A stretch of DNA of 61,732 bases. Origin: Marmoricola sp. Its GTDB lineage: Bacteria; Actinomycetota; Actinomycetes; Propionibacteriales; Nocardioidaceae. Below are positions 11,601-61,471 of the stretch, piece by piece (the stretch's first letter is position 1; every line of letters starts with the position of its first letter). The translations under genes were made by a program, and so were the position numbers. The notes under the pieces are model-generated. The model was not told the DNA's origin and searched no databases. It saw only the letters and a list, made by a program, of their open reading frames with translations. Location: positions 1 through 61,732 of the forward strand of contig JAOPXK010000018.1 of assembly GCA_025965195.1 (NCBI GenBank), written 5' to 3'.

Positions 11601-12943
11601 CTCCAGATCTCCCTGATTGCCCGGTCGAGATCGGCACCCACCTGGGCGACATCGCCGTCGAAGACCACATTGCCATCGACCATCACCCGTCGTACGTCGC
11701 CGGCGGCTGCCGCGAAGACCGCAGCCTCGATCGTCGATCCGGCTCCGGCCGTGCGCGGGCTGGCCAGGTCGAGCGTCACCAGGTCCGCACGGTGTCCGAC
11801 CGCGATCGCGCCCGCGTCGGCAAACCCGAGCGAGGCGTGGCCGGTCGTCGTGGCCGCGTCCATCAGCTCGCCGGCCGACCAGTGCCCGCGCGCCTGAGTC
11901 GCCAGCCTTTCGTCGAGCTCGACCGCCCGCATCTCCTCGAACGGGTCGATCACCGCATGGCTGTCACTGCCCAGGGTCAGCCGAGCGCCCCCGTCATGCA
12001 GCTGCCGGGACGGCCCGATGCCGTCGCCGAGATCGCGCTCGGTGGTGGGGCAGAAACAGGCGTAGGTGCCGGCCCGCCCGAGGGTCTCGACATCCGTCGC
12101 GGTCAGGTGCGTGGCGTGTACGACGCTGGTCTGATCACCGAGCGCGCCAGCCTCCTCGAGGATCTGGGTCGGGGTCAGTCCGTACGCCGCCAGGCACTGC
12201 TCGTTCTCTGCAACCTGCTCCGAGAGATGCACATGCAGCGGGCCACCCAGTGGTCGACCTTGCCCCGGTGGTCGAGCTTGTCGAGACCACTCCGCGATCC
12301 GGCCGAGCTGGTCGCGCGGCACCGCCCGGACCGAGTGAATCGCAGCACCGACCACGACATCCCCCCGGTGATCGAGCTTGTCGAGATCACTCACCCGCCC
12401 GGCCCACGCGTCGGCGTCCCCGTCGGAGAACCGTCGCTGTACTCCCTCGGGCGGCTTGCCGATCCCGGACGCGAGGTAGCAGGTGTCGAGGAGGGCGATC
12501 CGGATCCCGGCGTCCCGGGCGGCCTGGATGAGCGCGCGGCCCATCGCGTTCGGGTCGTCGTAGGGCCTGCCATCGGGCTGATGATGGAGGTAGTGGAACT
12601 CCCCCACGCTGGTGATTCCGGCAGCCACCATCTCGGCGTACGTCGCCCGCGCCAGCCGGTAGTAGCTGTCCGGGTCGAGCCGATCCGCGACGGCGTACAT
12701 CTGCTCGCGCCACGTCCAGAACGACCCCAGCCCAGTTTGAGTTCGACCCCGCAATGCCCGGTGAAAGGCATGGGAGTGGCAGTTCGCGAGGCCGGGGATC
12801 GTGAGCCCGCCGATCCGCTGGCCGGTCCACGGCCCGTCTCCTGCGGGGGCGACGGCGGTCCAACGACCGTCCTCGACGGTGACCAGTACGTCGTCGGCCA
12901 CTCCAGAAGGCAGCAGGGCATGTTCGAGGAGGTAGCTGGTCAT
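11597..12943 (-). CDS. hutF: Formimidoylglutamate deiminase
   Basis: 448 residues. Converts N-formimidoyl-L-glutamate to N-formyl-L-glutamate plus ammonia. It is an amidohydrolase-superfamily enzyme: HSH metal motif at residues 56-58, VHLSEQ, HATHLT and [11 protein letters not shown] follow in order. Two stretches look foreign to the family: about residues 185-194 ([10 protein letters not shown]) and 219-234 ([16 protein letters not shown]). Both are encoded by copies of the dispersed palindromic repeat (12367-12390 and 12267-12290), read in two different frames, and sit in the surface segments before [13 protein letters not shown] and before [10 protein letters not shown]. Start and stop overlap both neighbours by 4 bp. 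Confidence 0.94.
12267..12290 (+). repeat. Dispersed palindromic repeat, copy 1 (inside hutF)
   Basis: Full copy of the 24-bp repeat with core TCGAGCTTGTCGAGACC. It is read by hutF as WSRQARPP. A half copy (TGGTCGA) lies about 20 bp to the left. Confidence 0.85.
12367..12390 (+). repeat. Dispersed palindromic repeat, copy 2 (inside hutF)
   Basis: Same 24-bp repeat with GATC in place of GGTC in the left arm and GATC in place of GACC in the right arm, so the two changes compensate. It is read by hutF as LDKLDHR. Confidence 0.85.
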
Positions 12944-14190
12944 CCGGCGAGCGCTTCGAGGGTGTTGGTGAGGGCTTCGACACCGGCGAGGCAGTCGGCC
13001 ATCTCGGCGAACTCGGCCGGGGAGTGCGAGACGCCCGTCGGGTTGCGGACGAACAGCATCGCGGTCGGGATCCCGGCGGCGCAGAGCACGCCGGCATCGT
13101 GTCCGGCCATGGTCGGGATCACCGGCCAGTCATGGGGATCGGCGATCCGGCGAGCCAGGTCGGGGTCGAAGGCGACCGCGCCCGACACCGACTCGGCGGT
13201 GACGACGAGGGCGGTCCCGTCCCGGCCCGCACGTTCGTGACCGAGTCGGCCGATCTCGGCGATCATCCGGTCGAGCTCTGCGGTCGACTCGCAGCGGGCG
13301 TCGAGCCAGGCCGTCACGCGGGAAGGTACGGCGTTGGTGCCGTTGGGAGCGACGTCGAGGCGGCCGAACGTCGCCCTTCCGGTGGTCGAGCCCCGCGCCT
13401 GCTTGTTGGCGGCGAGCGCCGTCATCGCATAGGTCAGCATCGGGTCGCGCCGGTCCTCCATCCGGGTGCTGCCGGCATGGTTCGCCTCACCGGTGAAGTC
13501 GAACCGATAGCGCCCGTGCGGCCAGATCCCGCTCGCCACTCCGACCGCGACGTCCCGGTCGATCAGGTCCCGGCCCTGCTCGACATGCAGCTCGACGAAG
13601 CAGCCGACGTCCTGGAGCCAGCGGCTCGGGCCGAGCTCGGGCTCGAGGCCGGCGGCCGCCATCGCGTCCAGCAGTGCCACACCGTCGCGGTCCCTCAGCT
13701 CTCTCGCCGCGTCCGGGGACGTCGCTCCCGATGCGAGGCGGGACCCCAAGCAGGCAAGGCCGAACCTCGAACCCTCCTCCTCCGCGAAGGCCGCCACCCC
13801 GATCGGACGTGCCGGAGTGAACCCCCGATCGCGCAGCCGGTCGACCGCTGCCAGCGCAGCCACCACCCCCAGCGGACCGTCGTACGCCCCACCGTCGAGG
13901 ACCGAGTCGAGGTGCGACCCAGTGAGAATTCCCGATAGTCCGAGACGTTCTGGCCCTTCGGAAGCCGGTGGTGGGGCCGAAACGTCTCGGACTATCGGAT
14001 TCCACCAGCCGACAGTGTTGCCGTTGCCGTCGTGCTCGATCTCGAGTCCGCGGTCAAGACACTGCTCGACGAACCAGGTGTGGCACTCACGTTCGGCGCT
14101 CGCAAAGGGTTGCCGGAAGTACCCACCGCTCGAGGCCGACCGGCCAACCGCGGCGAGGTCGTGCCACATCGCCTCGAAGTGGTCAGGCAT
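12940..14190 (-). CDS. M20-family amidohydrolase (allantoate amidohydrolase-like), histidine-pathway associated
   Basis: 416 residues. A binuclear-metal M20 hydrolase: the GSHLDS metal motif has His93, followed by GAYDGPLGV (metal Asp), the catalytic EEEGSRFG block and LHVEQG. Closest in look to allantoate amidohydrolases/N-carbamoyl amino-acid hydrolases. Because it is coupled by a 4-bp overlap to hutF and hutI and no ordinary hutG is present, I infer that it deformylates N-formyl-L-glutamate. I chose the ATG at 14190, which has GGAG six bases upstream; an ATG at 14202 is possible. Residues 65-87 (PIVRDVSAPPP...LGLSG) are encoded by a 67-bp hairpin element and look inserted just before the metal motif. 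Confidence 0.88.
   Translation of the reverse strand: MPDHFEAMWHDLAAVGRSASSGGYFRQPFASAERECHTWFVEQCLDRGLEIEHDGNGNTVGWWNPIVRDVSAPPPASEGPERLGLSGILTGSHLDSVLDGGAYDGPLGVVAALAAVDRLRDRGFTPARPIGVAAFAEEEGSRFGLACLGSRLASGATSPDAARELRDRDGVALLDAMAAAGLEPELGPSRWLQDVGCFVELHVEQGRDLIDRDVAVGVASGIWPHGRYRFDFTGEANHAGSTRMEDRRDPMLTYAMTALAANKQARGSTTGRATFGRLDVAPNGTNAVPSRVTAWLDARCESTAELDRMIAEIGRLGHERAGRDGTALVVTAESVSGAVAFDPDLARRIADPHDWPVIPTMAGHDAGVLCAAGIPTAMLFVRNPTGVSHSPAEFAEMADCLAGVEALTNTLEALAG
13932..13998 (-). repeat. GATAGTCCG hairpin element inside the M20 amidohydrolase gene
   Basis: Perfect 18-bp inverted repeat: CCGATAGTCCGAGACGTT at 13932-13949 and its complement at 13981-13998. A partly paired inner part (GGCCC/GGGCC) surrounds the loop. 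It is read through in frame. The end sequence GATAGTCCG is shared with the hairpin at 18225-18287. Confidence 0.85.
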
Positions 14191-14200
14191 GCTTGGCTCC

Positions 14201-14815
14201 ATGGAGTTCCGAGACGTCGTACGCCGCAGACGGATGATCCGCAACTACGCGGAGACACCGGTCGACCCGGCGATCGTCGACCGGGCGATGGAGCATGCGA
14301 CCCACGCGCCGAGCGCAGGATTCAGTCAGGGCTGGGGGTTCCTCCGGCTCGACACGCCCGAGGACGTACGTCGTTGGTGGCAGTCCTCCACCGATCCGGC
14401 GTCGCTGGCCGACCCCGATGACTGGCTGACCGGGATGATGCGCGCACCTGTCGTGATCGTGCCGTGCTCGAGCAAGGCGGCCTACCTGAGCCGTTATGCC
14501 GAAGCCGACAAGGGCTGGACCGACCAGGACGAGGCCCGCTGGCCGGTCCCGTTCTGGCACATGGATGCGGCGATGGCCTCGCTGTTGATCCTGCAGACGG
14601 CCGTCGACGAAGGCCTGGGCAGCTGCTTCTTCGGGATCCCGCCGGGGAATGTCGCAGGCGTCAAGGCGGAGTTCGGGATCCCTGACGTATTCGATCCGGT
14701 TGGCGTGATCACCATCGGCCACCGGGTGCCGGACCGGGGAGCTGCGGGATCGCCGACCCGGCGCGGACGCAAGGACGTGCAGGACGTCGTACACCGGGGC
14801 AACTGGGGTTCCTGA
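14201..14815 (+). CDS. Nitroreductase family protein
   Basis: 204 residues. A flavin (FMN) oxidoreductase: MEFRDVVRRRRMIRNY is the classic N-terminal FMN-contact block, followed by HAPSAGFSQGW, a central HMDAAMASLLILQTAVDEGLGSCF helix and IGHRVPD near the end. Substrate unknown. The start overlaps the start region of the divergent M20 gene, so both promoters must lie inside the opposite coding sequence or overlap closely. CATGCT lies seven bases before the ATG and might be a weak -10. An ATG at 14189 would add four residues. Confidence 0.88.
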   Translation: MEFRDVVRRRRMIRNYAETPVDPAIVDRAMEHATHAPSAGFSQGWGFLRLDTPEDVRRWWQSSTDPASLADPDDWLTGMMRAPVVIVPCSSKAAYLSRYAEADKGWTDQDEARWPVPFWHMDAAMASLLILQTAVDEGLGSCFFGIPPGNVAGVKAEFGIPDVFDPVGVITIGHRVPDRGAAGSPTRRGRKDVQDVVHRGNWGS

Positions 14816-14959
14816 CACGACCTTCAGTCCACCGCGCCCCGTCTCGCGGGTCAACGCGACCGGCCGCTCAGAAGTCTCGGATCCGAGAGCCGCTGCATGA
14901 CTTGTCCCCTTCGGGGTAGCTGGTGCGGTGTCCCTTTCCCGACACCTCTGGAGCCTGTC

Positions 14960-15103
14960 ATGGTCGTCCTCGGTTTGATTCTCCTGATCATCGGTCTCAT
15001 CGCCAGCATCGGCATCCTCACCACGATCGGCGTCGTGCTGCTGGTCGTTGGACTGATCCTGAACCTGGTCCCGATGGGCGGCACCCGCCGCAGGGTGTTC
15101 TGA
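14960..15103 (+). CDS. DUF6131-family small hydrophobic protein
   Basis: 47 residues: MVVLGLILLIIGLI begins a first transmembrane helix, followed by a second helix (TIGVVLLVVGLILNLV) and a basic end (GGTRRRVF). Two short helices joined by a tight Gly turn and a basic tail are typical of the actinobacterial DUF6131 family, of unknown function. GGAG lies eight bases before the ATG. The 144 bp upstream to the nitroreductase end hold nothing else I can support. Confidence 0.75.
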   Translation: MVVLGLILLIIGLIASIGILTTIGVVLLVVGLILNLVPMGGTRRRVF

Positions 15104-15131
15104 CGCACATGGGACGCACCTAGTCCGTCAG

Positions 15132-15157
15132 CGGCGGCGCTCATCGAGCAGCCGCCG
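15132..15157 (+). terminator. GC-rich hairpin after the DUF6131 gene
   Basis: CGGCGGC and GCTC pair with GAGC and GCCGCCG around a 3-base loop with one bulged A. There is no T-run, so it may be a terminator of the short actinobacterial kind or only an mRNA hairpin. Confidence 0.4.
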
Positions 15158-15218
15158 ACCTGAGCGCTGAACCGGATGCAGTTCGCACGGCCTGCCGAAC
15201 GACGACAGACTGTGCGCA

Positions 15219-16550
15219 ATGTCCGAGAGCAATGAGACGTACAAGACGCTCGACCTCGCGCTCCGGGTCGGCGAGATGCTGCTCTCTTCCGGCGCCGGGG
15301 CGTCTGACGTTGCCGCCCAGATGCTCAACGTGGCGACCGCGTGCGGGATGCGCGCAGTGACTGCGGACGTCACCTTCACCGAACTCGCGATGAGCCATCA
15401 GCCGCAGTTCGACGAGCCGGCTCTGATCCAGATCCGGCACGTTCGCCATCGCGAGATCGACTACGAGCACCTGACCCTCGTCGACCACCTGGTCCGCGAT
15501 CTCGCCACCGGCACGATCGACCGCGACGAGGCCAGGGCACAGCTCAACCGGGTGCTCTCCTCGGGCCACGCCCGAGCGCGCTGGTCCGTCACCGTCGGGT
15601 ACGGCGTGATGGGCAGCGGTGTCGGCCTGATGCTCGGCGGCGACTGGATCGTCACCGCGATCGCGTTCGTTGCGGCCGTCGGGATCGATCTGCTGCAGCG
15701 ACAGCTGACTCGCCGCCGACTCCCGGCGTTCTACCAACAGGTCGCAGGTGGCCTGCTCGCGACGCTGCTCGCCACCGGGGCAGCCGCGGCCGACATCGGC
15801 GTCGAGCCCAGCCGGGTGGTGACCGCGAGCATCATCCTGCTGCTCGCCGGGGTGAACTTCATGGGTGCGATCCAGGACGCCCTCACCGGCTTTCCGCTCA
15901 CGGCCGGTGCCCGGATCCTGGAGGCGATGCTGGCCACGGCCGGCGTGATCGCCGGGGTCAGCGGTGGCCTGAGCGTCGCCCGGGTGCTCGGAGTGGACCT
16001 CGGCCCGCTCAACCCGGGAGCCCAAGCGATCTCACACCTGCCCCTGATGGCGCTCGGCGGCGCGATCACGGCCGCGGCTTTCGCCTTCTCGTCGTACGCC
16101 CCCTATCGCTCGCTCGCCCCGATCGCCGTGATCGCCGCCGGCGCGATGGCCGTCTACTCGACGATCTATCAGCAGGACCTCGGCATTGCCTGGGCGTCTG
16201 CGGTGGCTGCGATCCTGGTCGGGCTGGTGAGCTTCTCCGTCGCGGGGCGGTTCCGGGTTCCGGCACTGATCGTCGTCGTGTCTGCCGTGGTGCCGTTGCT
16301 TCCCGGCCTGTCGATCTATCGCGGGCTGACGCTGCTCTCCGAGGGCGGGCAGGACGGACTGCTGCCGCTGATCAACGCCGCCGCCATCGCGATCGCGCTG
16401 TCCTCGGGCGTGATCCTGGGTGAGTACGTCGCCCAGCCGCTCAAGCGCGAAGCCCGACGTTTCGAGAGCAAGCTCGCCGGTCCGCGGCTCGTCGGGCCGC
16501 TGCACGTGAAGTCCCTGCGCCGGCGCCCTCGCCCGACGCGTTCTGACTGA
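15219..16550 (+). CDS. Threonine/serine exporter family protein (ThrE-like)
   Basis: 443 residues, integral membrane protein. The N-terminal soluble part (about 1-120) carries the ThrE/DUF1212 signature: VGEMLLSSGAGASDVAAQM, then TADVTFTELAMS. The rest has about ten transmembrane helices (from about 125 to 405), ending in a basic cytosolic tail (RRRPRPTRSD). Family members export threonine and serine in Corynebacterium; the substrate here is inferred. No clear Shine-Dalgarno lies before the ATG. Confidence 0.9.
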   Translation: MSESNETYKTLDLALRVGEMLLSSGAGASDVAAQMLNVATACGMRAVTADVTFTELAMSHQPQFDEPALIQIRHVRHREIDYEHLTLVDHLVRDLATGTIDRDEARAQLNRVLSSGHARARWSVTVGYGVMGSGVGLMLGGDWIVTAIAFVAAVGIDLLQRQLTRRRLPAFYQQVAGGLLATLLATGAAAADIGVEPSRVVTASIILLLAGVNFMGAIQDALTGFPLTAGARILEAMLATAGVIAGVSGGLSVARVLGVDLGPLNPGAQAISHLPLMALGGAITAAAFAFSSYAPYRSLAPIAVIAAGAMAVYSTIYQQDLGIAWASAVAAILVGLVSFSVAGRFRVPALIVVVSAVVPLLPGLSIYRGLTLLSEGGQDGLLPLINAAAIAIALSSGVILGEYVAQPLKREARRFESKLAGPRLVGPLHVKSLRRRPRPTRSD

Positions 16551-16589
16551 CGGACCATTCTCGCCATTTGAGTCTCGATCCGTCGAGCG

Positions 16590-16595
16590 TACTTT
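16590..16595 (+). promoter_or_regulatory. Leaderless -10 box, DUF1992 gene
   Basis: TACTTT, six bases (TGACGC), then the GTG start at 16602. No Shine-Dalgarno is present. Confidence 0.55.
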
Positions 16596-16601
16596 TGACG
16601 C

Positions 16602-17090
16602 GTGGACAGCGAGAACCCCGACGAGCACGAGCCCCAGCCCGAACGGCGGGCGCATCGTGAGGCCGAGCGCGACGCTCGCACCGGGCGGAGTGCCGCGAGC
16701 GAACGGATCAGGCATCAGACCCAGTGGGTCGAGCAGCAGATCAGCCAGGCGATGGCGCGCGGTGACTTCGACAACCTCCCCGGTGCCGGCAAGCCGATCA
16801 AGGACCTCGGCTCGAGCCATGACCCTGACTGGTGGGTTAAGAAGCTGATCGAGCGCGAGCAGATCACCGGCGTACTCCCACCGGCGCTGATGCTGCGCAA
16901 GGAGGACGCCGAGCTCGACGGCGTACTCGACCGCGAGAACGTCGAACGGATCGTCCGCGAGATTCTCGAGGACTTCAACAAGCGCGTCATCAGTGCCCGC
17001 CGCCAGCTGCAGGGTGGTCCCCCGGTGATCACCAAGCTCCGCGACGTCGAGGCCGAGGTCACCGCCTGGCGCGACCGGCGGACCCGATAG
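16602..17090 (+). CDS. DUF1992 (DnaJ-homologue-associated) protein
   Basis: 162 residues from a GTG start. After a charged, probably disordered head (about 1-35, EHEPQPERRAHRE), the DUF1992 core is plain: an RHQTQWVEQQISQAMARGDFDNLPGAGKPI-like block, then DPDWWVKKLIEREQ and a long C-terminal helix. The family is linked to DnaJ-like proteins but its role is unknown. The end is ACC CGA TAG, the same nine bases that end hutU. The gene is convergent with the AbiEi-like gene, four bases apart. Confidence 0.85.
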   Translation: MDSENPDEHEPQPERRAHREAERDARTGRSAASERIRHQTQWVEQQISQAMARGDFDNLPGAGKPIKDLGSSHDPDWWVKKLIEREQITGVLPPALMLRKEDAELDGVLDRENVERIVREILEDFNKRVISARRQLQGGPPVITKLRDVEAEVTAWRDRRTR

Positions 17091-17094
17091 TCGG

Positions 17095-22917: not shown

Positions 22918-23673
22918 ATGGGTCAGGTGCCGGCAGCGACGAGAGCGCTGCGTGTGCTGAAGCTGCTCGCCAGGCATCCCGACCCGCTTCCACTCGAACG
23001 GATCATCCGCGAGCTGGCACTGCCGAGGTCCACGGCCTACCACTTGCTCAACGCAATGATCGAGGAAGGCTTCGTCGCCCACATCGGTGAGGAACGCCGT
23101 TACGGGCTTGGGGTCTCGGCGTTCGAAGTGGGCAGCGGGTTCTCACGACAGGAGCCCCTTCAACGGCTCTCCCGGCGACATCTCGCCCTGCTCGTTGATG
23201 ACGTCAAGCAGTCCGCACACCTGGCCGTTCCGCACGGCCGGGACGTGCTGTACGTCGTCGAGGAGCGTGCCCCTGGCCGGCCGCCCCTGGTCACCGATGT
23301 CGGCGTCCGGCTGCCGGCGCACCTCACCGCGAGCGGACGGGCGATCCTGGCAGCGTTGCCGGCCGCGCAGGTCCGGGCGCTCTACCCCGACAGGTCCGCG
23401 TTCGTCGAACGCCACGGCACCGGGCCGCAGTCGCTGACCGCGCTGCGGGCGGTCCTCTCCGACACGCGCCAGCGTGGCCACGCCGTCGAGGACGGCGAGG
23501 TGACTCCGGGTTTCGCGTCGGTGGCGGCGGCGGTGCTCGACCACAACGACCTGCCACTGGCCGGGATAGCGGTGACCTACCCGACCGACCAGCCCGTCGA
23601 CCTCGACCGGATCGTGCCACGGGTGATCGCGACCGCCCGGGCGATCAGTCGCCGGGTCGGCGGGCACGGCTGA
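22918..23673 (+). CDS. IclR-family transcriptional regulator
   Basis: 251 residues. The N-terminal winged helix (about 5-65) has the recognition region PRSTAYHLLNAMIEEGFV, and the C-terminal IclR effector domain (about 75-250) has the typical AHLTASGRAILAALP and DGEVTPGFASVAAAV motifs. IclR proteins usually control nearby catabolic genes through small aromatic or organic acids. Here the candidates are the hut genes, the MFS gene and the convergent penicillin-acylase-like gene. The 3' end overlaps the 3' end of the acylase gene by 29 bp. Confidence 0.92.
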   Translation: MGQVPAATRALRVLKLLARHPDPLPLERIIRELALPRSTAYHLLNAMIEEGFVAHIGEERRYGLGVSAFEVGSGFSRQEPLQRLSRRHLALLVDDVKQSAHLAVPHGRDVLYVVEERAPGRPPLVTDVGVRLPAHLTASGRAILAALPAAQVRALYPDRSAFVERHGTGPQSLTALRAVLSDTRQRGHAVEDGEVTPGFASVAAAVLDHNDLPLAGIAVTYPTDQPVDLDRIVPRVIATARAISRRVGGHG

Positions 23674-25699
23674 GCGGCGGCAACGGGACCAGTCGGCCAT
23701 CGGCGTACAACGCGAGCTGGTCGGACCCGTGCACCGACGCGAGGTCACCGTCCGCACCGAGAGGCACCACCCAGCCACCGGCGCTCCGGTCCGCGAGGTC
23801 CCAGACATAACGGGCCACGGGTCCGCGATGCGCGTGGACGACGCCGGGCAGCGCTCCCGCAGCCAGAACGCAGTCGTAGTCGCCACCCAGTGCCACCTCG
23901 ATCGCGGCATCCGCACTCCGGCCGGTCAGCCCGTGCCACGGCCCGAAGCGGTGCCGCTCCCCGTAGCTGCCGCTGGTCGAGCTGCGCCCGGTGGTCGAGC
24001 TTGTCGAAACCACTTCCATCGCCTCGACAACGAGTGCCTGGGTATCGGTCTTGAGGAGCTCGCCTGCGGACAGCAGCTCGTCCAGGCCCATCAGCACCCG
24101 GCCGGAAAACACGAACCACGCCGCATAGAGGTCGCCGTAGGGTGAGCCAGATCCCAGCCCAGCAAGCGACTCCAGCTCCACGAACCGTTCAACAACGACG
24201 TCGCGTAGTGCGAGAAACGTGCCGGCAGCAGTCGAGTCGGCCTCCATCCGGCCATCCCAGCCGACGAGCTCGGCCTGCAGGCCGATGGCCGCGTCGGACA
24301 GCCCTTCGGCGGATCCGACCAGGTCCAGCAGCACCGAGGCTGGCCGTTGCGTGTCGAGGTGGATCGCGGCGAAGTCTGCCGACGTCAGGCCGGTCCGGCC
24401 GTCGAGGAGGGCGTCGATACGGTCCGCGCGTGCCGACCGGGCGAACTCCGTCCCGATCCGGTCGAAGCCGTCCATCCGCTGGTTCGCCGTCGCGAGCTGG
24501 CCGTCCGGTGCCACCTCCGAGCGCGGCAGGTCGACCCAGCCGGTCCAGGCGGCCTCGGGCGAGGAGCCATCCACGGGAAGCCAGCGGTTCGCCTCGGCGC
24601 GGTCAGGCACCCGTCCGACCACCCGCTGTACGACGGCGCCGGTGTCGTCCGCGACCAGCAGGTTGTTCACCGGCTCGACCCAGCCGGCGAACGCCGCCTC
24701 GACATCGGCGGTCGTGCGGGCACGAAGCAGCGGCAGGAGAGCCGAGAATCCCAGGTCGGACAACGCGAAGCTCGGCGTCCGCAGCGAGTACGCCGCTTCG
24801 CCGGGTCCTCCGACCACCACCGGCCCGTTGGCCGTCTCGATCACCTCGGCCGCCACCGCTGGAGCCGACCGCACCTCGACCGTCGTGATCCGGGACGGCA
24901 CGTCGTACCAGCCGGCCGGCCCGCGAGCCTGCACTCCGGAACCGGTCCGGCGAAGGTCCTCGACGAAGACATCCTGGTAGTCGGCCGAGGCGTTCGTGAT
25001 CCCCCACGCGACCGACCCGGTGTGCGCGAAGTGCTGCACCCCCGGGACGCCCGGGAAGGTCATCCCGGTGACGTCGAAGTCCGGGCAGACCAGCTGCACC
25101 TGCTGGTAGCAGTTCGGAGCCTGGTAGTTGCGGTGCGGGTCGCCGGCCAGCAGCGGCAGACCGCTCGCCGTCCGCTCCCCGCCCACCACCCAGGCGTTGC
25201 TCCCGGCACTCCACAGGCCTTCGTACTGGAAGAGCGCGGCGATCGACGGCCCGACGGTCGAGACCAGGTGCTCGCGCCAGAGCTTCGCGGGAAAGGTCCC
25301 GAAGAGGATGTGGTTCACGAGGAAGATCCCGAGCGGCACGAAGGGCTCCCAGGCCGTCGGCCGCGCGTCCAGCCCGTCCAGCTCCGAGACCGCTCCGATC
25401 CGGGACAGCCCGAGGTTCACGCCGTCGACGTAGGCGTCCACGAAGGCCCGAGTGTCCAGGTCGAGCCGCGCATAGGCAGCCCGGGCCGTCTCCTCGACCA
25501 GCGCGCGCCGCGAGAACACGTCCCAGGAGACCCCGGACGGCCCGAGGACCGCGGCCGTCGTTCCGAGCACCCGCCAGTGATCGAGGGTGATCTGCCAGGT
25601 CCGGTCCTGCGCGACGGCACGGCCTTGTTCATGGGCAACCTCGAGCACGTCTTCGCCCGAGACCCGCGGGATTCCCCACTCGTCGATCGTTGTCGGCAC
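23645..25699 (-). CDS. Penicillin acylase family protein (Ntn hydrolase)
   Basis: 684 residues. Family members are made as one chain that self-cleaves before a Ser, which becomes the N-terminal nucleophile of the beta chain. Here that Ser is Ser167 in GSNAWVVGG, followed by the expected PLLAGDPH block. Later conserved parts include ANQRMDG and RHRFGPWHGLTG. Unlike secreted penicillin acylases there is no signal peptide before MPTTIDEWG, so it may act in the cytosol, for example on acylated metabolites. Residues 563-570 (VVSTSSTT) come from a copy of the dispersed palindromic repeat and extend a loop before the conserved GERHRFGPWHG. Start is GTG; TAGACG lies six bases upstream. Confidence 0.9.
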   Translation of the reverse strand: MPTTIDEWGIPRVSGEDVLEVAHEQGRAVAQDRTWQITLDHWRVLGTTAAVLGPSGVSWDVFSRRALVEETARAAYARLDLDTRAFVDAYVDGVNLGLSRIGAVSELDGLDARPTAWEPFVPLGIFLVNHILFGTFPAKLWREHLVSTVGPSIAALFQYEGLWSAGSNAWVVGGERTASGLPLLAGDPHRNYQAPNCYQQVQLVCPDFDVTGMTFPGVPGVQHFAHTGSVAWGITNASADYQDVFVEDLRRTGSGVQARGPAGWYDVPSRITTVEVRSAPAVAAEVIETANGPVVVGGPGEAAYSLRTPSFALSDLGFSALLPLLRARTTADVEAAFAGWVEPVNNLLVADDTGAVVQRVVGRVPDRAEANRWLPVDGSSPEAAWTGWVDLPRSEVAPDGQLATANQRMDGFDRIGTEFARSARADRIDALLDGRTGLTSADFAAIHLDTQRPASVLLDLVGSAEGLSDAAIGLQAELVGWDGRMEADSTAAGTFLALRDVVVERFVELESLAGLGSGSPYGDLYAAWFVFSGRVLMGLDELLSAGELLKTDTQALVVEAMEVVSTSSTTGRSSTSGSYGERHRFGPWHGLTGRSADAAIEVALGGDYDCVLAAGALPGVVHAHRGPVARYVWDLADRSAGGWVVPLGADGDLASVHGSDQLALYADGRLVPLPPLSRARRPGD
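23990..24013 (+). repeat. Dispersed palindromic repeat, copy 3 (inside penicillin acylase gene)
   Basis: Core TCGAGCTTGTCGAAACC (one G to A change from the common form). Read on the minus strand as VVSTSSTT. A half copy GGTCGAGCTG lies just to the left. Confidence 0.85.
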
Positions 25700-43790: not shown

Positions 43791-43866
43791 GCGGATGTAG
43801 CTCAGCTGGTAGAGCGCGACCTTCCCAAGGTCGATGTCGCGAGTTCGAATCTCGTCATCCGCTCCA
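43791..43866 (+). tRNA. tRNA-Gly (anticodon CCC)
   Basis: The acceptor stem GCGGATG pairs with CATCCGC, and CCA is encoded (43864-43866). The D arm is GCTC-AGCTGGTA-GAGC. The anticodon arm CGACC-TTCCCAA-GGTCG gives anticodon CCC at 43824-43826, and the T arm has GTTCGAATC. It reads GGG codons. Confidence 0.95.
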
Positions 43867-46673: not shown

Positions 46674-46680
46674 CGGCTCC

Positions 46681-46704
46681 GGTGGTCGAGCTTGTCGAGA
46701 CCGG
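46681..46704 (+). repeat. Dispersed palindromic repeat, copy 4 (intergenic)
   Basis: Core TCGAGCTTGTCGAGACC in the 42-bp gap between two convergent genes. The last two bases differ from the common form. Confidence 0.85.
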
Positions 46705-54671: not shown

Positions 54672-54677
54672 TGCGCA

Positions 54678-54818: not shown

Positions 54819-55043
54819 ATGGCACTCGGACTCGGCATCGTCTTGCTCGTCGCCGGCTTGATCCTCGGACTCAACGTGGTGAACCTGCCCGCCAGCTGGG
54901 ACCAGAACGTCGACTCGAACACGCTCGGCTGGATTCTGGTCGCGGTCGGCGCCCTCGCCATCCTGCTCACGCTCGTGATCAGCCAGCAACGCAGCCGGAC
55001 CACTGTCGTCGAGCGCCGGACGGACGTTCCTCCCACGCGCTGA
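54819..55043 (+). CDS. DUF6458-family small membrane protein
   Basis: 74 residues. Two transmembrane helices (about 4-22, IVLLVAGLILGLNVV, and 36-54, LGWILVAVGALAILLTLVI) are joined by NLPASWDQNVDSNT and followed by a charged cytosolic tail (QQRSRTTVVERRTD). This layout is the DUF6458 family, found in Actinobacteria and of unknown function. GGAGG lies before the ATG. Confidence 0.78.
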   Translation: MALGLGIVLLVAGLILGLNVVNLPASWDQNVDSNTLGWILVAVGALAILLTLVISQQRSRTTVVERRTDVPPTR

Positions 55044-55080
55044 GCCCTATGCTTCGGGCTACACGCCAGAGGGGGACAGC

Positions 55081-57681
55081 ATGCTTCGGCTTGGTCTAGG
55101 GGCTGTACTCACTGCCGCGACGCTCGTCACGCTTCCGCACGCTCCGGTTTCGGCGGGTGAGCCCACGCCCGATCCGCCGGGGGCGCGGGTTTCGGTGCAC
55201 AACGCAAACCTGACGGATGCGGCGCTGAGCTTCCTGACCCGGCGCAAGGGCAGGTACCGGATCGCCGACCCGTCCCGCGACCTCAGGCCGGCCGGGTCGA
55301 GCCGAACCGGAGCAATGGTCGCCGAGCGGTTCGACCAGCGCTACAACGGCATCCCGGTGCTGGGCAGCCAGTACGTCGTCCGTCTCACCGACCAGGGCAG
55401 CTCGGCCGTCGTCACCGGCACCAGCGGCAAGTACTTCAGCGGCCTCGACGTCGCCACGGACGCAGGCGTATCGGCCAGCCTCTCCCGGGTGGTCGCCCTG
55501 CACGCCCTGCCGCGGCCCTCGCGCCACGGCCCGGCGCAGACGACCGACCACGGACTCGTCATCGTCCCGTTCGGCCACGGCATCCTGACCCGGCACATCA
55601 CCGTCGCGACGTACGACGACCAGCGCAACCTCCCGGTCCGGATGGAGATGTACGTCGGAGCCGGCCGAACCCGACCGGTGCTGTCCTACGACTCCATCAG
55701 CTACGACGGACCCACCACCACGACCGGCGTCGCGAATCACTCCCCGACGCTGCCGCTCCAGGTACTGCAGACCGGGTCGACGTACACCCTGCAGGACCAG
55801 ACGAAGCCAATGTTCGCCTCGACCGGCGGCACGATCCGCACCTACGACGCCCACGGCATGGACGCCAGCGACTTCGGCCTCGAGCCCGGCCTCACCCCCG
55901 GGCCGGTGCTGGTCGGCTCCGGCGTCATCCCGTTCCCCGCGAGCCTGAACAAGCAGGGTGCTCTCGATGCGCACTGGGGCGCCGGCAAGGTCTACGACTT
56001 CTATGCGAACCTCGGTCGCGACAGTCTCGACGGCAAGGGCGGATCGATCGTCTCCGTCGTCGGCGCGACCGATGACGGCGGCCCGTTCCCGAATGCGTTC
56101 TGGGACGGCAGCGAGATGGTCTACGGCGCCGGTGGCTACGGCTACAAGCCGTTCTCCGCTGCACTCGACGTCGTCGGTCACGAGATGACCCATGCCGTCG
56201 TCCAGCACTCCGCCGGGCTGCTCTTCTTCGGCCAGGAGGGGGCACTCAACGAAGCCCTCGCCGACTACTTCGGCAACGCCATCGAGGACAACACCCTGAA
56301 CATCTCGATGTCGTCGCCCCTCGGCGGCCTGATGGGCCAGGACCTCTGCGTCAAGAAGGTCGGCGCGGCGTGCGCCGACCGCAACCTCGACAAGCTCAAC
56401 ACCACCTCGCACTTCGACGGCAGCGGCTTCGACGACGGCGGCGTGCACGCCAACTCGACGATCGTCTCGGGGGCGTTCTGGGAGACCCGAAAGATCCTCG
56501 GCGCCGCCCTCGGCGACAAGGTCATGTACGCCGTGATGACGCAGTACCTGACTCCGATGTCGGAGTTCATGGACGCTCGCCGCGCGACTCTTGAGGCCGC
56601 GCAGAGCCTGGGCGCGACGGCGGCACAGGTGACCGCGATCGGGCACGCGTTCGACAAGCGCGGCGTCGTGCAGGGCTGGGAGAAGAAGTTCCTGCACCTC
56701 GACGGCCGGACGCTGATGTCGAACCTCACCTACGGCGGCGCTCCTGCGGCTGGCGACGGGCGCTGGGTGATCGCAGACACCGGCCCGAACGCCGAACACT
56801 CCCCGGAGATCTTCGCCGGCACCGTTACCGGTGGCGGTCCGAAACGGATCTCGCCGTCGAACCCTGACGTCATCTACGACACGCCTGCGACCGACGGGCG
56901 CACCGTGATCTGGACGGCCACCTGGTTGCGGGCGAACTCCACGACCACCCGCGTACAGACCCGGTCGTTGTCCGGTGGACCGGTGCGCACGTTGGCGACG
57001 TACCGGAACGGGCTGATCTTCGGCACCGGGATCAGCGGGCATGTCGCCACCTGGAGCGGCTTCACCGGCCACAGCGAGGCGGTCTGGGTGAAGCGACCGG
57101 GAGGCCGGATCGTCAAGCTTCAGCACAGCCGTCACCGACAGCCCACTCAGCCGACGGTGCGCGGCAACCAGGTGGTGTACGTCGACACGGACGCCAGGTT
57201 CAAGCCGCGTACGACCGCGAAGCTGATGTCCTACGACGCCGGGAGCGGAGTCCAAAAGGTGCTCGCCGCGGTGAAGGGCATCGGCCACAGCGACGGTGAG
57301 CTCTGGAGTCCGCAGATCACGCCGTCCTACGTCGTGTTCCTCGCCGATGCCAGGATCGGTGGCAAGGAAGGACTGTTGCGCGTGGACCGCAACGGCCACC
57401 ATCTGCGGACGCTGATCCCGGAGCGGTCGAAGCTGGCCACCAGCGGTTACGGCATCGCTGCTTCGGACCGGGCCGTCACCTACCAGACCTTCTCCTTCGG
57501 GACCGGGCTGGTGCATCTGTTGCAGCTGACGACCCGCGGTGGCGGGCCGGTCAGGGTCAGCTGTGCCCGTGGGTCGCAGCCCGTTGCCGTGGCGGGCCGC
57601 CAGCGCCGGGTCCTGTGGGTCGATCTCAGCGCGGGCCGGGCTGATCTCGTCACCCGGGCCAACCCCGTCGGCAGCTGCTGA
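55081..57681 (+). CDS. Secreted M4-family (thermolysin-like) metalloprotease
   Basis: 866 residues. A Sec signal peptide (LGAVLTAATLVTLPHAPVSAG) is followed by an inhibitory FTP/PepSY-like propeptide (about 40-210) that includes YNGIPVLGSQYVV. The catalytic domain has the zinc motif HEMTH (His367, Glu368, His371) and the third ligand Glu391 in ALNEALADYFG. The last 300 residues are beta-rich with repeated strands (TolB/propeller-like), which may be a substrate- or wall-binding domain. GAGGGGG lies before the ATG. TATGCT upstream may be the -10. Confidence 0.93.
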   Translation: MLRLGLGAVLTAATLVTLPHAPVSAGEPTPDPPGARVSVHNANLTDAALSFLTRRKGRYRIADPSRDLRPAGSSRTGAMVAERFDQRYNGIPVLGSQYVVRLTDQGSSAVVTGTSGKYFSGLDVATDAGVSASLSRVVALHALPRPSRHGPAQTTDHGLVIVPFGHGILTRHITVATYDDQRNLPVRMEMYVGAGRTRPVLSYDSISYDGPTTTTGVANHSPTLPLQVLQTGSTYTLQDQTKPMFASTGGTIRTYDAHGMDASDFGLEPGLTPGPVLVGSGVIPFPASLNKQGALDAHWGAGKVYDFYANLGRDSLDGKGGSIVSVVGATDDGGPFPNAFWDGSEMVYGAGGYGYKPFSAALDVVGHEMTHAVVQHSAGLLFFGQEGALNEALADYFGNAIEDNTLNISMSSPLGGLMGQDLCVKKVGAACADRNLDKLNTTSHFDGSGFDDGGVHANSTIVSGAFWETRKILGAALGDKVMYAVMTQYLTPMSEFMDARRATLEAAQSLGATAAQVTAIGHAFDKRGVVQGWEKKFLHLDGRTLMSNLTYGGAPAAGDGRWVIADTGPNAEHSPEIFAGTVTGGGPKRISPSNPDVIYDTPATDGRTVIWTATWLRANSTTTRVQTRSLSGGPVRTLATYRNGLIFGTGISGHVATWSGFTGHSEAVWVKRPGGRIVKLQHSRHRQPTQPTVRGNQVVYVDTDARFKPRTTAKLMSYDAGSGVQKVLAAVKGIGHSDGELWSPQITPSYVVFLADARIGGKEGLLRVDRNGHHLRTLIPERSKLATSGYGIAASDRAVTYQTFSFGTGLVHLLQLTTRGGGPVRVSCARGSQPVAVAGRQRRVLWVDLSAGRADLVTRANPVGSC

Positions 57682-57690
57682 GCCCGCTGG

Positions 57691-58257
57691 TCAGGCCGCG
57701 AAGCGGGTGCCCTGCAGGCTGTCGAGGAAGCCTTCTACAACCTTGATCAACGCAGGCTCGGCGTCGGCGTGGATGTTCACCGGCGCTTCGATCGGCGACG
57801 GCTCGACCGGGGTCGGCGCCTCGATGTAGCGGTCGAGGACCAGGAAGCCGTTGACCACGTGACGGGCATCCATGCTGGTCAGCACTGGGCGCAGTGCGTA
57901 GTCGAGGGCGAGTGCATGGGCCACGCTGCCGCCGGTCGCGAGGGGCAGGACGCACTTCCCGGTCAGCCCGAACTGTGGCTGCAGGTCGAGCCAAGCCTTC
58001 AGCAGGCCCGAGAACGCGGCCTTGTAGACCGGCGTCGCGAAGACCACCCCATCGGCCTTCTCGAGCCGGGCGCTCGAGTCCACCAACGCCGGGTTGCCGA
58101 AGTCGGCGTGCAGCAGCGCTTGTGCTGGAAGGTCGCGGATCCGGAGGGTGTCCACGGTGTGCCCACGGGACTCGAGGATCGAGGACACATGTCCGAGGAG
58201 CACGTTGCTCCGCGAGATCTCCATCGGGCTACCGGAAACTGCAAGGACGTGTGCCAT
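57691..58257 (-). CDS. NADPH-dependent FMN reductase (MsuE/SsuE-like)
   Basis: 188 residues. The flavodoxin-like fold has SGSPMEISRSNVLL (phosphate-binding loop), then ATPVYKAAFSGLLKAWLD and LPLATGGS, as in SsuE/MsuE. It would supply reduced FMN to a two-component monooxygenase for organosulfur use. AGGAG lies eight bases before the ATG and 12 bp separate it from the sfnB-like gene, so the two are one operon. The C-terminal part has a Pro/Glu-rich segment (YIEAPTPVEPSPIEAPV). Confidence 0.88.
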   Translation of the reverse strand: MAHVLAVSGSPMEISRSNVLLGHVSSILESRGHTVDTLRIRDLPAQALLHADFGNPALVDSSARLEKADGVVFATPVYKAAFSGLLKAWLDLQPQFGLTGKCVLPLATGGSVAHALALDYALRPVLTSMDARHVVNGFLVLDRYIEAPTPVEPSPIEAPVNIHADAEPALIKVVEGFLDSLQGTRFAA

Positions 58258-58269
58258 GGGAGGTTCTCC

Positions 58270-59502
58270 TTAGATGGTTCCGTGGCGCGGCGGAGTCTGT
58301 CCGGTCAGGACGAAGCGGCCGAGGTGCTGGTACTTCCAGCGGATGGGGTCGTGCAGGGTGTGGGTGCGCGCGTTGCGCCAGTGCCGGTCGAGGTGCTCAC
58401 AGCTGGCCGCGGACCGAGTGCCGGAGACCTCGAAGAGCGCACTCGCGAGCTCGACCGAGGCCCGCTCGCCCAGCACCTTGGCGGCGGCGACGTCGAGCGA
58501 TGCCCGGGCCGCGGTCTGGTCCGCAGGGTTTGCGAAGACCTCGTCGACCGAGCGGCCGGCCAGCTCCAGCACGGCCTCGGCGGCCGTCAACGTGACGCTG
58601 AGCTCGCCGAAGCGCTGGATCACGAGCGGGTCGTCGACGGCCTGGCCGACCTCGGCCTCGAACCACGGCCGGCTCTTGGTGCGGACGAACTCGGCCGCGT
58701 CTTCGAGCGCCGCGCGCGCGATGCCGACATCGATGCTCGCGTGCAACAGCTGGGCGAAGGCGCCGTAGCCGTTGGGCTGGTCGAACGCCTCGTGCCGCGC
58801 GACGACCCAGTCCGGGTCGACGTCGATCTGGTCGAAGAGGATCGTGCCACTCGCGGTCAGCCGCTGGCCGACACCGTCCCAGTCGTCAAGGATGCTGACG
58901 CCGTCGCTGATCGCCGGGATGAACACGATCTGCTCACCCTCGCGAAGGCCACTGGTGCCGCGAGGGTCCTCGAGCCTCGCAAGGACCGGGATGATGTCGG
59001 CGAAGAGCGTGCCGGTGCAGTAGTACTTGGCTCCGGTCAGGCTGAGACGACCCTCGGGCGTGGCCGTCAGCGTCGTCGAGATGTCCTTGATGGTCTTGCC
59101 GCCGCGCTCCGACTGGGCATTGGCGAACAGCTTGCCCTCGAGCACCTTGCCGAAGAGATCGGCCTGTTGCTGCGGGCTCGCGGCCACCCGGACGAGGTTT
59201 GCGTAGACGAAGTGGCTGTGCGGGATCTGGGCGATGTTCGGGTCGGCCCGGGCGATCCGGCGGAACACCTCGGCGACGACGCTCGGCGGGAGCCCGGGAC
59301 CGCCGTACTCCCTGGGCACGGTGATCGTCAGAAGACCGGAGTTCGCGAGCCGGCGGATCTCGTCGTAGGGCAGCCGCCTGTCGCGGTCACGCTTCCCTGC
59401 CCCGCGGGCGAATTCCCGGGCCAGCTCCTCGGCAGTCTGTAGGGCGTGGGCAGCATCGCGGATCGTCGCGACGCGTGCCGGCGCCAGGTGCTCGATCGTC
59501 AT
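58270..59502 (-). CDS. SfnB-family sulfur-acquisition oxidoreductase
   Basis: 410 residues. It has the acyl-CoA-dehydrogenase fold of flavin-dependent monooxygenases such as SfnB/DszC: VPREYGGPGLPPSVVAEVFRRIARADPN, GKLFANAQSERGGKTIKD, LTGAKYYCTGTLFADIIPV. These enzymes help oxidise sulfones or related organosulfur compounds when sulfate is scarce. It is the first gene of a two-gene operon with the FMN reductase. The ATG at 59502 has a TACTAT -10 six bases upstream and no ribosome site. A motif shared with the Rrf2 promoter overlaps the -10. Confidence 0.88.
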   Translation of the reverse strand: MTIEHLAPARVATIRDAAHALQTAEELAREFARGAGKRDRDRRLPYDEIRRLANSGLLTITVPREYGGPGLPPSVVAEVFRRIARADPNIAQIPHSHFVYANLVRVAASPQQQADLFGKVLEGKLFANAQSERGGKTIKDISTTLTATPEGRLSLTGAKYYCTGTLFADIIPVLARLEDPRGTSGLREGEQIVFIPAISDGVSILDDWDGVGQRLTASGTILFDQIDVDPDWVVARHEAFDQPNGYGAFAQLLHASIDVGIARAALEDAAEFVRTKSRPWFEAEVGQAVDDPLVIQRFGELSVTLTAAEAVLELAGRSVDEVFANPADQTAARASLDVAAAKVLGERASVELASALFEVSGTRSAASCEHLDRHWRNARTHTLHDPIRWKYQHLGRFVLTGQTPPRHGTI

Positions 59503-59508
59503 AAAGTA

Positions 59509-59514
59509 ATAGTA
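59509..59514 (-). promoter_or_regulatory. Leaderless -10 box, sfnB-like gene
   Basis: On the minus strand TACTAT, six bases (TACTTT), then the ATG at 59502. Confidence 0.65.
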
Positions 59515-59525
59515 GCAACTTTATC
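59512..59525. promoter_or_regulatory. Shared motif GTAGCAACTTTATC at the sfnB-like promoter
   Basis: It overlaps the -10 box, matches the Rrf2-promoter motif at 12 of 14 bases and lies between inverted arms ATAAAGT and ACTTTAT. Confidence 0.45.
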
Positions 59526-59558
59526 GACTTACCTAACCATCGGCCCACGAGCTGCGTG

Positions 59559-61367
59559 TCAGGAAACGCCTCCCAGGGGCAACGTGAGGGTTCCGGCGCC
59601 GTCTCTCGAAACCCGGATCGGGACACCCCAGTCCTGCTGGTGCAGGTGGCAGGCAGCGCCCTCGCCCTCGGTCGCGTCGCACGATGCCGCGCGTGCCGCG
59701 ATGTGCAGTACGCCGTCCCCGACCGCCTCGTCGATGAGCAGCACCCGGGTCAGGTCGGTGCCGACTCCGTCGCCCGCCTTGAGCAGGGCCGGCGGCGTGG
59801 CGCTCACGTGCAGCTGGGTCGCCGGCCCGAAACGGTCGTCCACCTTCTGCCCCGGTGGCGGCCTGAAGGTGACCTCGAGTCGCAGCTCGCCGGGGAGTAC
59901 GTCGGTCGGTGGGCGCCGGGTGCGACCGATCACCCCGTCCGCGACCGCCAACCCGTCCCCGGTGGTCGAGCGGTCGTCGGTGGTCGAGCCTGTCGAGACC
60001 GCGGCGAGCCGGTGCGCTCCGGACTCGACGACGATCACGGCGGTCGAGCTGTCCCCGGTGGTCGAGCTTGTCGAGACCACGAACCCACTCGGCTCCTGCA
60101 GCCCGGTCGCAACCGTGCTCAGCTGCTTGGTTGCCGGGTCGTAGCGACGAACCGCGCCGTTGTACGTGTCGGCGACCAGTACGGCGCCATCGGGAAGGAC
60201 GGCCACTCCGAGCGGATGCTGCAGCCGAGCCTCCTCACGGGCGCCGTCGCGGAAGCCGAAGTCGAAGAGCCCTTCGCCGATGACGGTGTGGACCTCGCCC
60301 GCCTCGACGTACCGCAACGACGAGGTCTCCGAGTCCGCCAGCCACAGCCGGTCGCCGTCGGCGGCGAGACCGGACGTCTGGGCGAACCAGGCGTCCTCGA
60401 GCGATCCGTCGAGCAGTCCCTCGTTGGTCGTGCCTGCCGCGACGGCGACCTCACCGGTCTGCGGATCGAAGGTCCAGAGCTGGTGGATGCCGGCCATCGC
60501 GATCCAGACCTTGTCCTGCCACCAGGTCACGTCCCATGGGCTCGAGAGGGCGGCCGTGCCGTCTCCTTGCATCAACTGGTGGCCGGTGCCCGCGAGGTTG
60601 CGCACCTGGCCCGTCGCGAGCTCGACGCCTGCGAGCCGGTGGCCGACGGTGTCCGCCACCACGACGTCGTAGCCAACGGCGTTCGCGACCTCGGCCGGCA
60701 GCAGGCAGAGCCCGTTCGGCTCCTTGAACTGTCCCTCACCCAGCACCCGGACGACGGTCTCACCATCGGGTGCGAGCTCGACGAGGCGGTTGTGGCCCGC
60801 GTCGGCCACGAGAATCCCATTGTTTTCAAGGCGAATCGCCTTCGCGGGGAACCGGAGGTCGGTCGGCTCGACCACCGGCGGGACATAGGGCGAGTCCCCC
60901 GGCTGCAGGGTGCCCTTCCGGAGGTGGACCTTTCGGAGCTCGGCGATCAGGGCGTCGATCGCATGGGCGTGACCCTCACCGGCGTACTGCGCGACCACGT
61001 ACCCCTCGGGGTCGATCAGCACCAGCGTCGGCCAGGCCCGCGCGGTGTACGCCTGCCAGGTGATCAGCTCGGGATCGTCGAGCACGGGATGGCGTACGTC
61101 GTATCTCTCGATCGCCTGGGCGAGCGCGACCGGATCGGCCTCGTGAAGGAACTTCGGGCTGTGCGCACCGATGACCACCAGCTCCCCGGCGTACTTCTCC
61201 TCGAGCTCGCGCATCTCATCGAGGACGTGCAGGCAGTTGATGCAGCAGAACGTCCAGAAGTCGAGCAGCACGAACCGGCCGCGCAGGTCACCGAGCCGGA
61301 TCGGCTCTCCACCGGTGTTCAGCCAGCCTCGGCCGATCAGCTCTGGGGCACGCACGCGAGGAGTCAC
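59559..61367 (-). CDS. Thioredoxin-fold/NHL-repeat protein
   Basis: 602 residues from the GTG at 61367 (GGGGAG upstream). The N-terminal thioredoxin-like domain (about 1-150) has the redox pair Cys42-x-x-Cys45 in FWTFCCINCLH. NHL beta-propeller repeats follow (about 180-430; LRFPAKAIRLENNGILVADAGHNRLVEL is the first). The rest is a beta domain. No signal peptide or membrane segment, so it is probably cytosolic. Residues 430-437 (VVSTSSTT) and 457-463 (VSTGSTT) come from two copies of the dispersed palindromic repeat, in the linker after the propeller. Confidence 0.9.
   Translation of the reverse strand: MTPRVRAPELIGRGWLNTGGEPIRLGDLRGRFVLLDFWTFCCINCLHVLDEMRELEEKYAGELVVIGAHSPKFLHEADPVALAQAIERYDVRHPVLDDPELITWQAYTARAWPTLVLIDPEGYVVAQYAGEGHAHAIDALIAELRKVHLRKGTLQPGDSPYVPPVVEPTDLRFPAKAIRLENNGILVADAGHNRLVELAPDGETVVRVLGEGQFKEPNGLCLLPAEVANAVGYDVVVADTVGHRLAGVELATGQVRNLAGTGHQLMQGDGTAALSSPWDVTWWQDKVWIAMAGIHQLWTFDPQTGEVAVAAGTTNEGLLDGSLEDAWFAQTSGLAADGDRLWLADSETSSLRYVEAGEVHTVIGEGLFDFGFRDGAREEARLQHPLGVAVLPDGAVLVADTYNGAVRRYDPATKQLSTVATGLQEPSGFVVSTSSTTGDSSTAVIVVESGAHRLAAVSTGSTTDDRSTTGDGLAVADGVIGRTRRPPTDVLPGELRLEVTFRPPPGQKVDDRFGPATQLHVSATPPALLKAGDGVGTDLTRVLLIDEAVGDGVLHIAARAASCDATEGEGAACHLHQQDWGVPIRVSRDGAGTLTLPLGGVS
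59979..60000 (+). repeat. Dispersed palindromic repeat, copy 5 (inside thioredoxin/NHL gene)
   Basis: Core TCGAGCCTGTCGAGACC (one T to C change). Read as VSTGSTT. A half copy (GGTGGTCGAG) lies at 59961-59970. Confidence 0.8.
60057..60080 (+). repeat. Dispersed palindromic repeat, copy 6 (inside thioredoxin/NHL gene)
   Basis: Full copy with the common core TCGAGCTTGTCGAGACC. Read as VVSTSSTT. A half copy GGTCGAGCTG lies about 15 bp to the left. Confidence 0.85.
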
Positions 61368-61447
61368 GAGTCCATTCTCCCCACTGGCCCGAACGATCCC
61401 GGACTCCCGGCGGTCGCGCTGCAACCCGGCGGACGCGCTGCGTCTTC

Positions 61448-61471
61448 GGTGGTCGAGCTTGTCGAGACCAC
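61448..61471 (+). repeat. Dispersed palindromic repeat, copy 7 (intergenic)
   Basis: Full copy with the common core, in the 190-bp gap between the divergent thioredoxin/NHL and DUF222 genes. Confidence 0.85.

Follow-up and report, generated by a model that had tools for sequence, protein, structure and literature searches.

A short hairpin repeat in the genome of Marmoricola sp. is probably a repetitive extragenic palindrome (REP)-type system that would be mobilised by a GIY-YIG nuclease; we put the probability of this reading at roughly 0.7. The DNA analysed was a 61,732-nt stretch of contig JAOPXK010000018.1 (assembly GCA_025965195.1), hereafter the window. The copies form a family with a covarying stem, are translated within protein genes as insertions relative to homologues, and are associated with genes for GIY-YIG nucleases. 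An initial annotation of the window had described a ~24-bp palindrome invading protein genes in several frames. It mentioned neither half-units, nor a family spanning phyla, nor a probable GIY-YIG partner, all of which are described below.

Architecture of the repeat unit

The unit consists of a 26-bp hairpin head, GTGGTCTCGACAAGCTCGACCACCGG, and zero to three half-units, usually spaced at 18 bp, and is larger than first proposed. The head defines the family by its 5'-CGGT tag, a variable 4-bp stem, the invariant core GAGCYTGTCGA and the returning stem strand. Its stem occurred in the subtypes GGTC/GACC, GATC/GATC and GGTT/AACC. Stem covariation was scored on 109 distinct cores, outside what the scan pattern demanded. 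The four pairs adjoining the core (pairs 1 to 4) were paired in 99, 104, 106 and 96 cores, against shuffled means of 78.5, 91.6, 64.0 and 69.2, and pairs 5 to 8 showed no coupling in the same cores. The palindrome is imperfect: its covarying stem is only 4 bp long, and the GGTC and GATC subtypes are predicted to carry a 2-nt bulge.

One to three half-units, each about 5 nt plus GCTCGACCACCGG, followed the head in 69 of 133 copies at no more than two mismatches. The same test at shifted positions, as a control, was positive in 17 of 650. Half-units after GATC heads often bore the same letters as their heads. The spacers varied across loci, and neighbouring spacers within one locus were identical in 6 of 13 pairs. 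The last spacer resembled the DNA 3' of the half-unit over 50 loci, with 107 matches compared with 80.7 after permutation (0 of 5000). Local tandem duplication would be the simplest reading of the half-units. In Arthrobacter relatives the arrangement was different from the head and half-units of the Marmoricola genome: a frequent unit there was an inverted dimer, its cores separated by about 21 bp (locus L222 at 6046 and 6067, and other Micrococcaceae loci). Propionicicella superfundia (L169) had dense arrays of hairpins with a CCTT/AAGG stem.

A GIY-YIG nuclease gene beside the hairpins

The open reading frames (ORFs) near the hairpins, 498 in 139 loci, were clustered blind to function. The largest cross-genome cluster was a small GIY-YIG nuclease, with 12 ORFs from 6 genomes (several loci share a genome), and the runner-up by genomes reached 4. 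All 8 ORFs tested were assigned to PF01541, and each of the 20 proteins aligned kept the GIY-YIG site residues Tyr, Tyr, Arg, His and Glu without exception. A tblastn search over 3.67 Mb found the gene in 10 genomes, with a core within ~100 bp in nine and 483 bp away in the tenth. Hairpins stood on either side of an intact gene in Arthrobacter sp. P2b (L184, 7386-7679), in Cyclobacterium and in a repeat-poor relative, G475 (L426, 15797-16081). A metagenome-assembled genome (MAG) of Bacteroidia also carried the gene between inverted hairpin copies.

Cores lay within 150 bp on both sides of the gene in 6 of the 7 loci tested from these 10 genomes; cores placed at random within the locus did so 0-3.7% of the time. 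The flank-to-flank inverted score exceeded the shuffle maximum at L184, L426, L207, L118 and L185, and slightly at L243. The G475 locus, L426, is informative because stretches of that genome were taken irrespective of hairpins. L118 is a GIY-YIG remnant in the Marmoricola genome itself. It contains stops, its C-terminal half is gone, and it lies between inverted hairpin copies. Only two called genes in the stretches of this genome had copies on both sides, and the scan of called genes missed L118 because that gene is broken.

GIY-YIG genes between other inverted repeats

Plasmids were searched with GIY-YIG proteins only, and the flanks of the genes were then scored for inverted repeats. The first query gave inverted flanking repeats in 4 of 12 fetched loci (Methylobacterium twice, Sphingobium and Sinorhizobium) and, by this scoring, none in the other 8. 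With the second query, 12 of 14 loci scored at least 17 and 9 of 14 at least 20, and the loci of Rhizobium sp. K1/93 and Photobacterium had no flanking inverted repeats. Pooled, 16 of 26 loci had inverted flanks scoring at least 17 and 13 of 26 at least 20; the set includes near-duplicate loci (a Sinorhizobium pair and a Sphingobium pair), and the scores depend on the gene bound (35 vs 22 for L481). Control windows were seldom positive. In 49-kb stretches of four of these replicons, 1 of 1,284 windows scored at least 17 and none at least 20. Among G475 windows of equal geometry, 1 of 1,720 scored at least 20 and 11 at least 16, and in stretches of the Marmoricola genome 3 of 2,154 scored at least 17 and 1 at least 20.

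Most of the inverted repeats were CGTC-type REPs. Among the loci of the second query, such hairpins stood on both sides of the gene in Neisseria gonorrhoeae, Azospirillum, Neorhizobium, Shinella, Aeromonas, Novosphingobium and Sphingobium. The N. gonorrhoeae hairpin is presumably dRS3. The flanked proteins have a common motif, W.R..K..L(I/V), with Y once in place of W. Flanking repeats were found for 15 of 19 genes with this W motif and for 1 of 7 without it, that one being frameshifted (p=0.005).

Further hairpin families were noticed among these loci. On a Sphingomonas parapaucimobilis plasmid (L483, 1300-1900), the GIY-YIG gene lies amid TTCGACTTCGCTCAG-type hairpins, which may possibly represent a sister core of TCGACARGCTC. 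In two Methylobacterium plasmids (L481 and L482), inverted CCTCCTTCGAGG...CACCTCAGGATGAGG repeats enclose the GIY-YIG gene, and the gene of L482 appears frameshifted.

REPs might simply land often at GIY-YIG genes, or repair might be what links the two, with no mobilising role for the nuclease. Association is no proof of action, REPs occur near many genes, and some W-motif genes lacked flanking repeats among loci that were sampled non-randomly. However, several unrelated families of REPs, in several phyla, had the repeats inverted and on both sides, a pattern rare in the control windows, and flanking was enriched with the W motif. We regard this explanation as unlikely.

Search for a Y1 transposase partner

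The hairpins could also be ordinary REPs of the REP-associated tyrosine transposase (RAYT) kind, whose HUH Y1 transposase was lost or missed. The tagged imperfect hairpin, the Micrococcaceae dimers and the location of some copies near gene 3' ends are REP-like. Y1 genes were present in 4 of 24 repeat-bearing genomes tested, but in 0 of the 15 actinobacterial ones. Y1_Tnp was absent from the Marmoricola genome and was found in 2 of 100 genomes of the family, both without repeat copies, and the core was absent from all 27 Y1 loci fetched (24 + 3, ~3 kb each). A RAYT origin is unsupported, with no Y1 gene beside the hairpins and a tag of CGGT rather than GTAG, and we consider it very improbable.

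Translated insertions in protein genes

Copies were catalogued at no more than three mismatches in 59 genome stretches around listed matches and in the window, together 1.07 of 3.97 Mb, which gave 161 distinct copies. Genes were called with our own codon-model gene caller (89% coding). Of the 100 copies with at most one mismatch, 68 were genic, 25 intergenic and 7 at edges. The spacing from the head to the first half-unit was a multiple of 3 in 47 of 47 cases in genes, compared with 8 of 18 between genes. Since the genic spacings were all multiples of 3, the genic copies are under frame selection. The initial annotation had all three frames in use. All three did occur among the 68 genic copies, but not evenly: VSTSSTT was read in 41, LDKLDHR in 12 and SRQARPP in 1. 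Opposite-strand frames accounted for VELVETT in 13 and one other, so that the core DNA was read in five of six frames.

Comparison with homologues bore out the claim that the repeat invades protein genes in frame. Both peptides of HutF were missing from 18 of 18 aligned homologues of the genus, and both peptides of the thioredoxin/NHL protein from the two close orthologues found. Homologues that carry the peptides without the DNA repeat, which would have spoken for ordinary conserved sequence, did not occur for either protein. For the penicillin acylase only distant homologues (31-36% identity) were available, so its repeat is a candidate insertion. Alignment with the closest solved HutF structure, 3MDU, suggests that the HutF peptides lie in a loop. 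We also queried 85 genic copies against 0.8 Mb of the relative G475 and the HutF and NHL loci. Eleven were alignable, four of them from the window. Resemblance of the empty sites to the element, which would point to template switching, was unsupported at 8 sites (Fisher p=0.22).

A contrary explanation is that codon use produced the DNA repeat as a by-product, and that the peptides are no more than conserved or convergent low-complexity stretches of protein. The commonest frame does encode a Ser/Thr/Gly linker typical of disordered segments, and 3 of 11 aligned sites showed no length change. This is hard to reconcile with the presence of identical DNA at intergenic positions and in five of the six reading frames, with the covarying stems, or with the missing peptides in the HutF and NHL relatives. 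We consider it extremely improbable.

The copies between genes raise the question of a host role, such as transcription end, mRNA stability or nucleoid binding, that would keep the repeat without mobility. Of the intergenic copies with a called gene on each side, 9 of 26 sat no more than 11 nt from a gene 3' end. However, many copies were inside genes, copy number was erratic within one genus, and the Arthrobacter intergenic dimer examined was not intact in 28 of 28 aligned orthologous loci, three of which contain look-alikes. A host role as the reason for retention is accordingly rated as highly unlikely. A clean empty site at this dimer was considered and rejected: the core is missing from the 28 loci, but the DNA between the genes varies too much for an insertion to be delimited.

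In 80 loci from other genomes, 40 cores lay in called genes and 182 outside them. Some genes in Arthrobacter, Pseudarthrobacter and Specibacter held several copies each (L181, L189, L197 and L164), with the peptides VVEPVETP or VSTGSTTGDRACRDQ. The HutF of G422, a genome without the repeat, has tandem GTIPIPA peptides in a different loop (L133), perhaps another gene-invading repeat.

Distribution across genomes

The initial annotation had suggested a motif search of the whole genome and of relatives. The entire Marmoricola genome contained 167 core copies at no more than two mismatches, compared with 4 for the reversed pattern. At least one match was present in 64 of 100 genomes of the family, with 0 to 186 copies that varied erratically inside one genus. 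In a sample of the phylum, 41 of 396 genomes matched, mostly with one or two matches each.

The repeat was not restricted to actinobacteria. Among the matches listed in a scan of named genomes were Arthrobacter, Pseudarthrobacter, Cryobacterium, Microbacterium, Nocardioides and others, and, outside the actinobacteria, Treponema bryantii isolates, Cyclobacterium and MAGs of Bacteroidia, Flavobacteriales, Akkermansiaceae and Anaerolineales, the MAG placements being open to contamination. In the phylum of the Bacteroidia MAG, 6 of 247 genomes matched, one with poorly paired stems, and compensated stem types occurred. In the Treponema phylum, 8 of 149 genomes matched and the reversed pattern had 0; the hairpin was abundant in T. 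bryantii (119 copies) and in one other of these genomes (109). Judged by its sequence, the window repeat is one subtype of a cross-phylum hairpin family. No matches were found in phages; one IMG/VR contig and one Arthrobacter plasmid record matched, and no GIY-YIG gene was confirmed in viral contigs.

Copies in the window

The 17-bp core was present in seven copies at the places first described, four exact and three with one mismatch. At up to three mismatches there were 11 matches in the window against 0.43 expected, a number attained by 0 of 100 shuffles. Five copies lie in genes, as the initial annotation had it: those at 12272 and 12372 in HutF, 23995 in the penicillin acylase, and 59984 and 60062 in the thioredoxin/NHL gene. 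Our gene caller placed the copies at 46686 and 61453 between genes. Around 61453 the open frame continues to 61658. The features are listed in Table 1.

Table 1. Repeat copies and their host genes in the window
Feature	Position	Strand	Remark
hutF-like amidohydrolase gene, 448 aa, with two translated repeats	11597..12943	-	both missing from the aligned homologues
Repeat, hairpin head and one half-unit (period 18), in hutF	12247..12290	-	translated as 15-residue peptide
Repeat, hairpin head, GATC/GATC stem subtype, in hutF	12365..12390	-	translated DLDKLDHRG
Penicillin amidase gene, 684 aa, with one repeat	23645..25699	-	distant homologues only
Repeat, hairpin head and half-unit, in penicillin acylase gene	23970..24013	-	translated as 15-residue peptide
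Repeat, hairpin head, between convergent genes (5 and 11 nt off their 3' ends)	46679..46704	-	
Thioredoxin-like/NHL-repeat protein gene with two translated repeats	59559..61358	-	start codon uncertain; two close orthologues without repeats
Repeat, hairpin head (CAGGC loop) and half-unit, in thioredoxin/NHL gene	59959..60002	-	translated VSTGSTTDDRSTTG
Repeat, hairpin head and half-unit, in thioredoxin/NHL gene	60037..60080	-	translated as 13-residue peptide
Repeat, hairpin head and two half-units (periods 20 and 19), probably upstream of thioredoxin/NHL gene	61407..61471	-	

A flank, TTTGTCACCGCAACAAGGGGAAAGT, was partly common to several copies (window ~61470-61500; L098, L075 and L081 near contig ends), which suggests a second repeated segment adjoining the hairpin. 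A search of the window against Rfam at the gathering threshold matched a tRNA gene (43791-43863, + strand) and nothing else.

A model for the spread of the hairpins

We propose that the repeat is a non-autonomous short hairpin with a CGGT end tag and an invariant core, and that it owes its spread to a small GIY-YIG endonuclease encoded by a gene that lies among, and typically between, hairpin copies. The nuclease might bind the hairpin extruded from single-stranded DNA and nick it near the tag, and host repair could then copy or capture the hairpin-bearing strand at new sites. The tandem half-units may have arisen by local re-copying next to the hairpin. Copies in genes would persist if the frame is kept and the loop peptides are harmless. 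In the Marmoricola genome the visible partner has decayed, and the copies may be relics or may be served by an unseen intact gene.

In this model, recognition, nicking and mobilisation of the hairpin by the nuclease are drawn by analogy with RAYT REPtrons. Several observations weigh against it. The predicted fold of the hairpin alone is weak, at -2.3 to -5.0 kcal/mol, and 9-34 of 200 shuffles folded equally. The Marmoricola genome yielded only the broken remnant in the ~1.07 of 3.97 Mb examined. The flanks of the Spirochaetota loci L453 and L468 were not inverted above shuffles, though cores lay on both sides. Nine of the 10 CGGT genomes, Marmoricola included, were reached via hairpin-selected stretches. 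The plasmid loci were chosen by hand from the search hits, 12 out of 37 records and then 14 out of 35, rather than at random; the picks favoured alphaproteobacteria, and the second set was also chosen for variety, including CGTC hosts named in PMC3733652. The flank control was matched for geometry and not for intergenic position, and four W-motif genes (L483, L484, L494 and L500) were unflanked by the inverted-repeat test. At the 11 aligned genic sites, target duplication was not established and the net insert length varied: 8 sites were gapped by 3 to ~12 aa (one gap, printed as 14, overlaps a neighbouring gap, and in one case identity to the relative is just 44%), whereas the other 3 differed by zero or one residue.

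The odds also somewhat favour a broader proposal, that a second REP class exists across phyla in which a W-motif GIY-YIG nuclease, and not an HUH transposase, spreads tagged hairpins. This class would cover both the CGTC REPs (dRS3, RPE-4, RPE-6 and kin) and the CGGT family. REPs are common in bacteria, and if the proposal holds, a GIY-YIG partner would explain the spread of large orphan REP families, possibly those of Neisseria and Rickettsia, and provide an enzyme-substrate pair open to direct testing. It would also show where some new in-frame loops of actinobacterial proteins come from.

Comparison with known systems

In the text of PMC3733652, GTAG and CGTC REPs are defined, and CGTC repeats are reported in 5 phyla. 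They are equated there with dRS3 in Neisseriae (CGTC-1) and with the Rickettsia palindromic elements RPE-6 and RPE-4 in R. conorii. As of that report (2013), CGTC REPs were unassociated with transposase genes, and of its tagged families the GTAG group alone had a partner enzyme. Its main text contains neither 'actinobacteria' nor TGTCGA; consensus sequences stand in figures, outside a text search. The literature searched, which excluded bioRxiv and most subscription journals, contained no paper tying GIY-YIG to REPs among the titles listed, and searches with sequence strings of the repeat gave no paper on such repeats among the titles listed.

Among solved structures, only UPF0213 proteins (PDB 1ZG2 and 1YWL) were matched, and they share a single GIY-YIG domain of ~95 aa. 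They differ in that, of the 7 GIY-YIG genes fetched in which no W motif was readable, only the frameshifted one had flanking repeats. GIY-YIG homing endonucleases such as I-TevI are also nucleases serving a selfish element, with long target-binding domains; we know of no hairpin repeats associated with them.

Rickettsia palindromic elements, to which the initial annotation had likened the repeat, also form in-frame peptides in protein genes. The comparison was apt, since RPE-4 and RPE-6 correspond to CGTC REPs in PMC3733652, where RPE-1 is a longer palindrome. The hosts differ, and the likeness is one of description. GTAG REPs with their RAYT (REPtrons) share a tag, an imperfect hairpin, many copies and a nuclease gene between inverted copies. 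Their tag is GTAG and their nuclease HUH Y1, whereas the window family has CGGT and, as its probable partner, GIY-YIG. A MITE derived from a DDE transposon would show terminal inverted repeats and a target duplication; for the window repeat the net insert length varied and a duplication was not established.

The CGTC REPs are likewise tagged short hairpins of several phyla, often dimers, that occur inside genes and are reported without a transposase. The window repeat resembles them in that no associated transposase was found in a search for the Y1 class alone. As seen here, CGTC REPs also bracket GIY-YIG genes. They differ in having a CGTC tag (or TGTC, CCTC), an 8-9 bp stem beginning with AT and a 4-5 nt loop, whereas the window repeat has a CGGT tag, four covarying stem pairs and a fixed core of 11 nt.

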